In this document: in pieces, positions 11,513 through 33,719 of the stretch
Layout: each line of letters begins with the position of its first letter
How positions within the stretch are numbered: position 1 is the first letter of the stretch
Made by a program: the position numbers and the translations under genes
From: an uncultured Oscillospiraceae bacterium
Lineage (GTDB): Bacteria > Bacillota > Clostridia > Oscillospirales > Oscillospiraceae
Length of the DNA: 55,326 bases
Direction: 5' to 3'
Assembly: GCA_950097245.1 (NCBI GenBank)
Contig: CATNCS010000010.1
Location: forward strand, 1-55,326
Notes under the pieces: model-generated
Told to the model about the DNA's origin: nothing
Database searches by the model: none
Seen by the model: only the letters and a program-made list of their open reading frames with translations

Positions 11513-11541
11513 TTGACACACCCACAAAAATGTGGTATGCT
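11513..11541 (+). promoter_or_regulatory. Promoter of the orphan antitoxin-like sRNA
   Basis: TTGACA, 17 bases, TATGCT. No protein gene follows; the transcript would end at 11647. Confidence 0.7.
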
Positions 11542-11547
11542 ACAGTT

Positions 11548-11647
11548 GTGTAGGGGAATCGCCCAGCGCTGGCGGTTTGGCCCTGTTAAGCTAGGTTTTT
11601 ATCAAGAGACAGAAACCGTCACCGTGCAGGGTGGCGGTTTCTTTTTT
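11548..11647 (+). ncRNA. Orphan copy of the antisense (antitoxin-like) RNA
   Basis: A predicted RNA of about 100 nt between a TTGACA promoter and a strong terminator: GAAACCGTCACC (11612-11623) pairs with GGTGGCGGTTTC (11630-11641), followed by six T. Its sequence matches the minus-strand RNA at 33176-33271 over most of its length: both begin GTGTAGGG, share GGCGGTTTGGC and AAGCT, and end with the same hairpin. On the opposite strand only the tail of the peptide gene survives (KRNRHPAR and a stop, directly preceded by another stop), so the toxin-like frame has been lost while promoter, RNA and terminator remain. Confidence 0.6.
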
Positions 11648-32995: not shown

Positions 32996-33024
32996 ATCCC
33001 GCTATGCACTTGGCATAGCGGGAT
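32996..33024. promoter_or_regulatory. Perfect 12-bp inverted repeat overlapping the small-peptide promoter
   Basis: ATCCCGCTATGC and GCATAGCGGGAT around a 5-base loop. The right arm contains the second half of the -35 (TTGGCA, 33010-33015). No U tract follows, so it is either a weak terminator for the cofE-like gene or an operator for the peptide promoter. Confidence 0.55.
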
Positions 33025-33038
33025 AACTGTTGTATAAT
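33010..33038 (+). promoter_or_regulatory. Promoter of the small cationic peptide gene
   Basis: TTGGCA, 17 bases, TATAAT; transcript start near 33045, giving a leader of about 60 nt. Confidence 0.75.
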
Positions 33039-33074
33039 GAAAAACAAGGTGCGCTGGCAAAGCGGCGGCGGTTT

Positions 33075-33103
33075 GGCCACATCCTCCGAAAGGAGGTGAG
33101 GCC
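33075..33103 (+). promoter_or_regulatory. Shine-Dalgarno-sequestering hairpin
   Basis: GGCC, ACAT, CCTCC, a GAAA tetraloop, GGAGG, TGA, GGCC. The full-strength ribosome site AGGAGGTGA (33091-33099) is largely inside the stem. Upstream CGGCGGTTTGGC (33066-33077) is also complementary to 33238-33249 in the 3' region, allowing a long-range 5'-3' pairing. Confidence 0.65.
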
Positions 33104-33105
33104 CA

Positions 33106-33198
33106 ATGCCTATGACGTTTACGTTCACATGCCACTTCCGTGGCTACACAGTGACGTTCCAGGTCAGGGTAAGCGGAAACCGCCACCCGGCACGGTGA
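33106..33198 (+). CDS. Candidate type I toxin-like peptide, 30 residues
   Basis: ATG 33106 to TGA 33198, six bases after AGGAGGTGA. The peptide has alternating Thr and aromatic/aliphatic residues (TFTFTCHF, then YTVTFQVRV) and a basic tail GNRHPAR, so it would make a short cationic beta-strand rather than the helical membrane peptide of known type I toxins. It has a consensus promoter, a sequestered ribosome site and a strongly transcribed convergent RNA over its 3' end, the arrangement of type I toxin-antitoxin loci. The same tail (NRHPAR, stop) survives as a relic opposite the sRNA at 11.6 kb. Toxicity is an inference. Confidence 0.55.
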   Translation: MPMTFTFTCHFRGYTVTFQVRVSGNRHPAR

Positions 33199-33271
33199 CG
33201 GTTTCTGTGCAAAACATAAACCAAAGCTTGATTTAGAGCCAAACCGCCGAAGCTCAGCAGTGCCCTACACA
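33176..33271 (-). ncRNA. Convergent antisense RNA (antitoxin candidate)
   Basis: It starts near 33271 from a TTGACA/TATAAT promoter and would end at the hairpin 33176-33205 (12-bp stem, one wobble), which is shared with the end of the peptide gene. The RNA is fully complementary to the last codons and 3' region of the peptide mRNA. It aligns with the RNA at 11548-11647, which has the same 5' end, the GGCGGTTTGGC block and the same terminal hairpin but a better U tract. The 3' end here is uncertain because no U tract follows the hairpin. Confidence 0.55.
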
Positions 33272-33277
33272 CCTGAG

Positions 33278-33307
33278 ATTATACCATAGCCTTTCCCAGC
33301 CTGTCAA
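33278..33307 (-). promoter_or_regulatory. Consensus promoter of the antisense RNA
   Basis: Minus strand: TTGACA, 18 bases, TATAAT, both hexamers perfect; stronger on paper than the peptide promoter, as expected for an antitoxin RNA. Confidence 0.8.
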
Positions 33308-33367: not shown

Positions 33368-33445
33368 GTAGGGGCGGATATTATCCGCCCGCTGCTCCAG
33401 AAGTTCCGGCTTTTCCAGAAGTGGGCGGCTGATAGCCGCCCCTAC
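33368..33445. repeat. Palindromic mosaic repeat, complete two-hairpin unit
   Basis: GTAGGGGCGGATATTATCC... on the left and GGGCGGCTGATAGCCGCCCCTAC on the right, separated by a middle hairpin-like CCAGAAG/CCAGAAG region. The outer ten bases are exact inverted repeats. Confidence 0.85.
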
Positions 33446-33475
33446 ATAAAAGCTGCGAAAAGGACACTCCCGACG

Positions 33476-33504
33476 GCCCCGTTTCTCAACCTGAGAAACG
33501 GGGC
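33476..33504. terminator. Hairpin after the xre gene
   Basis: GCCCCGTTTCTCA pairs perfectly with TGAGAAACGGGGC around ACC. TGTTTTTATT follows on the plus strand; the minus-strand xre stop is six bases away. Confidence 0.7.
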
Positions 33505-33509
33505 TGTTT

Positions 33510-33719
33510 TTATTCCTCCACCACGGTGAGAATGTCGGTGAGCTGACAGTCCAGCGCCTCAATAATCCGGCCCAGGTTGTAGCCGTCCAGACGGCAGACC
33601 TTGTTTTTGTAGTAGCTGTCAATGACATGATACTGAATACCAGTACGCTTTGCAAGATTATATCGGCTGATGCCGTTGGTATCCAAATAGTCAGCCAGAC
33701 AAAACCGTACAACCTTCAT
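33510..33719 (-). CDS. Small Xre-family (Cro/C1-type) DNA-binding protein
   Basis: A protein of 69 residues that is essentially one helix-turn-helix domain: RFCLADYLDTNGISRYNLAKRTG then IQYHVIDSYYKNK as recognition region, LDGYNLGRIIEALDCQLTDIL. A protein of this kind is a typical small repressor. It is divergent from the small acidic gene at 33827 across an AT-rich gap that contains repeated GGTATAT sequences, likely its operators. The start is ATG 33717-33719. Confidence 0.88.
   Translation of the reverse strand: MKVVRFCLADYLDTNGISRYNLAKRTGIQYHVIDSYYKNKVCRLDGYNLGRIIEALDCQLTDILTVVEE

Follow-up and report, generated by a model that had tools for sequence, protein, structure and literature searches.

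The question raised by this locus is whether a 30-codon gene from an uncultured Oscillospiraceae bacterium, whose product does not resemble the usual hydrophobic toxins, nevertheless belongs to a type I toxin-antitoxin-like system. A reading made from the DNA letters alone (the sequence-only reading) had proposed such a locus and had suggested that the peptide family may be undescribed. Our analysis of the window, i.e. the whole stretch of 55,326 nucleotides, and of related genomes supports the type I-like reading through the joint conservation of its elements, purifying selection on the peptide frame and the presence of toxin-like peptides in apparently the same RNA frame. We put at about 0.7 the probability that the locus is a type I toxin-antitoxin-like cassette whose payload is a beta-strand peptide, for which we infer transcription, antisense action, a membrane target and toxicity.

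Layout of the locus and its two promoters

The five elements of the proposal (peptide gene, two promoters, Shine-Dalgarno (SD) hairpin and 5′/3′ complementarity) are all present in the sequence, among the following features.

33010..33038, plus strand: sense promoter TTGGCA-17-TATAAT, matching 11 of 12 consensus positions
33046..33078, plus strand: 5′ arm of the long-range stem, made of an outer part, an A-rich bulge and an inner part, GGCGGTTTGGCC
33083..33096, plus strand: SD-holding hairpin CCTCC-GAAA-GGAGG
33106..33198, plus strand: peptide gene of 30 codons, MPMTFTFTCHFRGYTVTFQVRVSGNRHPAR, then stop
33173-33195, plus strand: tail read into the hairpin, part of the peptide gene and missing from many relatives
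33175..33206, no strand assigned: tail hairpin AAACCGCCACC...GGTGACGGTTT, from covariation and alignment
33238..33265, plus strand: 3′ arm of the long-range stem, whose complement is the predicted beginning of the antisense RNA
33278..33307, minus strand: antisense promoter TTGACA-18-TATAAT with an extended −10 (TG before the −10), matching 12 of 12 positions
32996..33024, minus strand: terminator-like hairpin of the antisense RNA, 12 pairs followed by TTATTTT (consensus match only)
33472..33508, plus strand: nearest downstream sense-strand terminator-like hairpin, 17 pairs, candidate end of the sense transcript
11513..11647, plus strand: orphan antisense half with no peptide (E 2.4e-18 with R1, a model of the antisense half)

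As the sequence-only reading had described, a TTGGCA-N17-TATAAT promoter precedes the 30-codon gene, and the SD sequence is held in a GAAA-capped hairpin. The 5′ arm begins directly after the predicted transcription start (about 33045). The 12-base complementarity between the two ends of the locus, also pointed out in that reading, is indeed found between GGCGGTTTGGC at 33067 and GCCAAACCGCC at 33238, and forms the inner portion of a longer, interrupted stem. The hexamers of the convergent promoter are perfect, as claimed, and an antisense RNA overlapping the peptide mRNA is predicted from it; the stated coverage of the 3′ end may be too short, because a terminator-like site at 33024-32996 would let this RNA cover the whole mRNA. 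The same terminator-like hairpin overlaps the −35 element of the sense promoter, and therefore the two transcription units may interfere directly.

A scan of 2.5 kb gave eight promoter-like sites, compared with 1.5 (sd 1.1) in shuffles, and the sense and antisense promoters are the best-scoring of the eight. Across related loci, the antisense promoter matches at least 10 of 12 positions in 42/44 loci of the genus and 49/51 loci of the family (91/95 in total), compared with 9/880 and 9/1020 shuffles (about 1%), respectively, and with 3/44 and 9/51 loci when the opposite strand of the same stretch is scored. The sense promoter reaches this level in 35/44 genus and 34/54 family loci (2/880 and 7/1080 shuffles), the forward promoter being poor in about a third of loci. 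Judged by consensus, the antisense promoter is the stronger of the two convergent promoters.

Around the locus, the motif TAGGGGCGG occurs at five places on the plus strand and six on the minus strand (including 32202, 33369 and 33436), and bounds GC-rich inverted repeats around 32202 and 33369-33444, one such repeat sitting between the locus and the downstream sense terminator. No Rfam family reached its gathering score in the window; the best two matches in the locus (E 0.068 and 0.96) fell far under their gathering scores and are at chance level. A search for tRNA and tmRNA genes found none.

Downstream of the locus and convergent with it, the gene for a 69-residue HTH protein (33510-33719, minus strand) matches PHROG 4583, a transcriptional repressor (E 8.4e-5), and an HTH gene is also found beside a copy of the locus in Vescimonas fastidiosa. 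We considered this gene as a third component and rejected it: a focal-like HTH gene adjoins 9 of 88 locus sequences, all from the genus and apparently representing one site. Other HTH matches are present in three more locus sequences, two upstream and one weak (wider family).

Relatives of the locus and conservation of its peptide

Beyond what the sequence-only reading had noticed, related loci are present in the same genome, including the orphan half at 11513-11647 in the window. This half carries a near-consensus promoter, with TTGACA at 11513 and TATGCT at 11536, the conserved 5′ segment and a hairpin followed by six T, and might act in trans. A second intact peptide copy of the same genome (G000:C13:18999; locus L009, C13:18600-19500) keeps the sense promoter and the SD hairpin and has lost its antisense half immediately downstream of the stop codon. 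Furthermore, a deleted copy lies at C13:22260-22443 and a remnant at C1:85499.

Within the genus, DNA matches were obtained in 25 and peptide profile matches in 26 of 64 genomes, with tandem copies in some, and the alignment of 31 copies revealed that the entire layout is conserved. A subtype-pattern search recovered nine loci in records of Lawsonibacter, Colidextribacter and Pseudoflavonifractor. The peptide profile matched 71/300 genomes of the family (40/106 genera), 18/345 of the order sample and 2/391 of the class sample, these last two being the window's own genome and one weak match. Among the R1 matches listed (to E 1.3e-5), the antisense half adjoins at least 85 of 88 genus peptide matches, a count that compares 88 of 95 peptide places (seven with E above 0.001 were left out) with 150 listed R1 places. 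Besides the copy at C13:18999, two genus peptide matches have no antisense half among the R1 matches listed, and one may be missed.

The peptide frame, the predicted stem and hairpins and the putative antisense promoter are conserved together in relatives. The sequence-only reading had tied its proposal to such joint conservation, which is indeed seen for the peptide frame, the SD hairpin and the antisense promoter. Since the elements recur together in related loci, their arrangement is more than chance.

For the focal-type peptide, no phage record was found, and the plasmid collection held one named record with copies, a Vescimonas fastidiosa replicon; in the one named record of this species checked, the best match falls at a place with no annotated feature. 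With no phage record and a single plasmid-collection record, a phage or plasmid origin was rejected. Among viral contigs, 22 stretches fit a pattern drawn from one subtype only, and none was confirmed.

The peptides of this family roughly follow the pattern M-P-x-T-x-T-F-H-x-x-G-Y-T-V-T-I-x-V-K. Many Lawsonibacter-type copies end at KVK or IKR, directly before the hairpin, and in other copies the reading continues into the hairpin to give NRHSAK, NRHPAR or similar tails. Because copies either stop before the hairpin or read through it, the GNRHPAR tail of the focal peptide is the hairpin read as codons. Of the features that had been used to describe the peptide, the alternation of Thr with hydrophobic residues stands, but the tail is not defining, as it is absent from many copies.

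For the 14 core codons, pN/pS amounts to 0.34 in 44 genus loci and 0.42 in 52 family loci (three of 55 loci, which have no core pattern, were left out), versus 1.41 and 1.70 in the only other frame for which enough loci were readable, all in sets collected with peptide patterns and therefore biased toward amino-acid conservation. The third positions of these codons are the most variable, and in almost every locus listed the SD matches at least 5 of 7 positions. The peptide frame is judged to be under purifying selection.

No family reached threshold for the focal peptide in Pfam, NCBIfam, PADLOC or PHROGs, and in Pfam none was found even at E 10, in line with the suggestion of an undescribed family. 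One relative, the only one of four peptides searched to do so, matches YrzI (PF09501) weakly over 12 residues (E 0.041, 14.5 bits versus a cut-off of 23); this is a lead, not a relationship. In a review (PMC8309996), membrane-associated type I toxins are described as alpha-helical and hydrophobic. No hydrophobic alpha-helical transmembrane segment is present in the focal peptide, which is amphipathic and cationic (net charge +4). Its maximum 15-residue hydropathy of 0.33 agrees with the earlier remark that it is unlike the hydrophobic single-helix toxins; this maximum ranges from 0.33 to 1.45 in six focal-type peptides, versus 1.9-3.2 in the hydrophobic payloads described below. Because Thr alternates with hydrophobic residues, the focal peptide would be expected to form an amphipathic beta-hairpin or strand.

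The RNA frame and the other peptides that it holds

The predicted sense RNA (33045-33262) adopts one closed fold with z = −4.8, and 0/200 shuffles are as low; the focal antisense RNA, extended to the terminator-like hairpin at 33024-32996, gives z = −6.2. Cognate 5′ and 3′ arms pair with −40.3 kcal/mol versus −29.9 kcal/mol for non-cognate arms (means of 98 loci), and 0/5000 permutations reach this level, in a control that is generous as the loci are related. Mispairs in the arms were analysed in 92 of 99 loci, the rest being too short or below score 22. On the sense strand, G-U outnumbers A-C by 94:56 in 42 genus loci and by 139:34 in 50 family loci; counted by locus, G-U is favoured in 57 and A-C in 21, with 14 ties. 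This preference for sense-strand G-U over A-C suggests that selection acts on the mRNA. Where the arms have extra bases, these are mostly found in the 5′ arm (79 of 92 loci vs 8).

Covariation was assessed in 32 of the 99 loci, selected so as to be diverse and to have arms that can be aligned; 12 loci, weak or truncated, were excluded by name. In these 32 loci, both sides have changed at 25 of the 44 pairs that make up the modelled structure as a whole, and 0/500 shuffles reach any of five measures. Support is good for the outer stem and for the tail hairpin, the latter with both-sided changes at 6 of 12 pairs. In the leader hairpin, whose covariance had been proposed as a check, the SD-holding helix is paired in 79.9% of cells, and both-sided changes are found at 2 of 7 pairs, the weakest covariation of the three structures. 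Hiding of the ribosome-binding site, which is common but not universal in type I systems, is predicted here from the SD hairpin and the 5′-3′ stem, both conserved. In the tail hairpin, a C-A mismatch kept on the sense strand corresponds to a G-U pair on the antisense strand, and the hairpin therefore looks built for the antisense RNA; alternatively, the stop codon could fix this mismatch.

The model R1 was built from antisense halves taken from 38 loci, each of which has the focal peptide type. It matches 37 of 64 genus genomes, and 65 of the 150 genus matches listed have no focal-type peptide match. We inspected 61 genus loci, i.e. 59 of these 65 places and two from the window's own genome: 46 hold a hydrophobic peptide, 13 have no callable peptide under the ORF rule used, and two are ambiguous. 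The stop codon of the hydrophobic peptide opens the hairpin or closely precedes it in the 46 loci (e.g. MVTYSELFQYSLVIIGIIGLFIAANKKK and MGNGRWTKVLRFVVCVIITALLLILTAPNAC). One R1 place of each kind is found in the window's own genome, at C1:56360 and C1:66836, and there too the frame occurs with a hydrophobic single-helix payload.

Hydrophobic peptides were likewise found in 14 of 20 family loci, one further locus being doubtful and five having none; these loci were picked from genomes with no focal-type peptide match and are not a census. Two of the 14 passed the Pfam cut-off of 23.3 bits for Hol_Tox (L274 with 34.6 bits and L270 with 30.2 bits). Among 30 loci of the order and class, 18 peptides are hydrophobic (six outside the order), two are weaker, four are of NRHS type, and six loci have none. 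In 57 of these hydrophobic loci, selected by peptide beginnings and thus not a census, the arms pair cognately (0/5000 permutations) and the antisense promoter matches at least 10 of 12 positions in 57/57. The R1 frame was counted in 51/150 family, 40/147 order-sample and 29/148 class-sample genomes, figures in which the weakest matches lie near the E 0.01 limit, the E-values are rough and some matches were counted unread.

One hydrophobic payload was searched in plasmid and phage records, with no plasmid record and one phage record at E 0.3. In L160, L165, L170, L174 and similar loci, whose peptides end in KKK, a C-run in the leader could pair with an upstream G-run or with the SD, and these leaders may possibly be a two-state switch. 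In other Clostridia, four loci (L296, L279, L283 and L297, all outside the family and some outside the order) have short hydrophobic peptides of different sequence in apparently the same frame, and are possibly further payload types.

Because what seems to be the same frame elsewhere holds hydrophobic, type I toxin-like peptides, the focal peptide sits in an apparent toxin slot. We give even odds to a broader interpretation, namely a Clostridia-wide type I toxin-antitoxin superfamily whose defining feature would be its RNA frame rather than its toxin, with a slot in which payloads can be exchanged and which has a beta-strand payload at the focal locus. The frame would consist of a strong antisense promoter, a stop-codon hairpin, a 5′-3′ stem and a hidden SD, and among the payloads there would be at least two types of hydrophobic helix, one Hol_Tox-like and ending KKK, the other ending NAC, TAC or similar.

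Possible mechanism, alternatives and known systems

In the mechanism that we propose, the sense mRNA would start near 33045, and its full-length form would be translationally quiet because the 5′ arm pairs with the 3′ arm and the SD sits in a local hairpin. The stronger convergent promoter would give rise to an antisense RNA that begins opposite the 3′ arm of the mRNA, folds into a hairpin of its own at the stop codon and can extend across both the ORF and the SD; its pairing with the mRNA would block translation or make the duplex accessible to RNase III. If the antisense supply dropped, or if the 3′ end of the mRNA were trimmed, the short cationic peptide would be made and would act at the membrane as an amphipathic beta-hairpin or strand.

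Copies in tandem, a patchy distribution and the decay of some copies are observed here, as is usual for type I-like loci. Several findings speak against a toxin: the copy at C13:18999 keeps an intact peptide, the SD hairpin and the promoter with no antisense half, two more genus peptide matches have no antisense half among those listed, and the focal peptide is devoid of the hydrophobic helix usual for type I toxins. If the peptide were a strong toxin, such unguarded copies would not be expected to persist. Given the unguarded copies and the weak forward promoters, the peptide may be mild, conditional or no toxin.

The last of these cases would correspond to a conserved non-toxin peptide (a small regulator, a leader or a signalling peptide), with the same antisense control determining how much of it is made. 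Its unlikeness to known hydrophobic type I toxins and the persistence of the copy that has lost its antisense half fit such a peptide; no conserved operon partner needing a leader peptide was seen, the HTH gene adjoining 9/88 locus sequences at seemingly one site. We nevertheless consider this explanation unlikely, as the same RNA frame holds several hydrophobic peptide types, some of them Hol_Tox, and as the patchy distribution, the copies in tandem and the antisense halves left as orphans are reminiscent of toxin-antitoxin turnover.

It is quite improbable that the locus is a MITE-like mobile repeat, with the arms as terminal inverted repeats and the ORF and promoters as passengers. Many copies per genome, inverted arms and varied sites would suit such an element, but the two conserved promoters are located outside the arms, the frame appears to be under purifying selection, and a DNA repeat needs neither arm mispairs biased to sense-strand G-U nor extra bases placed mainly in the 5′ arm. 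Very improbable, too, is a functional small RNA of the antisense strand, opposite an incidental ORF. The antisense promoter is the putatively stronger one, the tail hairpin pairs better on this strand, orphan copies keep this half alone and the focal antisense RNA folds well (z = −6.2); yet the ORF has a pN/pS of 0.34-0.42 versus 1.41-1.70 in the other readable frame, the SD is kept in nearly all loci listed, and other ORFs occupy the same slot. A chance arrangement of consensus-like sites, to which the weakness of consensus matches as evidence might have pointed, has a negligible probability and is refuted by conservation, covariation and promoter statistics.

The type I toxin-antitoxin-like cassette, which we prefer, can be compared with known systems. 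In AapA/IsoA of Helicobacter and in hok/sok, a long-distance 5′-3′ interaction of the mRNA, a hairpin-held SD, a cis antisense RNA and several chromosomal copies are described (PMC6733600); according to this source, the long-distance interaction makes the full-length mRNA inert, the 3′ end itself masks the SD in AapA/IsoA and hok, and 3′ trimming activates the mRNA. The focal locus has a predicted 5′-3′ long-distance interaction as well (0/5000 permutations; 0/500 shuffles), and differs in that its SD sits in its own local hairpin with the stem upstream of the SD, its antisense RNA is predicted to start opposite the mRNA 3′ arm, and the peptides differ. By likeness to AapA/IsoA and hok, we infer that 3′ trimming might also take place at the focal locus. 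The type I modules of Clostridioides difficile (CD2517.1-RCd8 and others), as presented in PMC6563280, have converging and overlapping toxin and antitoxin genes, a layout shared by the focal locus; their toxins are hydrophobic with charged C-termini, whereas the focal peptide is not hydrophobic.

Hol_Tox (PF16935), the Pfam family of putative holin-like toxins, comes close to the focal locus through the two family genomes in which a Hol_Tox peptide sits in the R1 frame; the focal peptide differs from it, having no Pfam match and being amphipathic and cationic, while Hol_Tox is hydrophobic. Converging and overlapping toxin and antitoxin genes are also found in TxpA/RatA and BsrG/SR4 of Bacillus subtilis. 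We know of no long-range 5′-3′ stem in the convergent modules of C. difficile or B. subtilis comparable to that of the focal locus. In Fst/par of pAD1, the toxin mRNA and the antitoxin RNA are convergent and pair through direct repeats and a shared terminator; the arms of the focal locus, at 33067 and 33238, are inverted and not direct repeats. In the extracts of the open-licence PMC literature consulted, no description of the peptide family or of the shared frame is apparent.

If the type I-like reading is true, an amphipathic, cationic beta-strand peptide would be, to our knowledge, the first type I toxin with that architecture, and would extend the range of chemistry known among such toxins. 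Copies that have lost the antisense half and antisense halves with no peptide are natural tests of which half is tolerated alone. Moreover, type I loci would become findable through their regulatory RNA rather than through their very short, fast-changing peptides.
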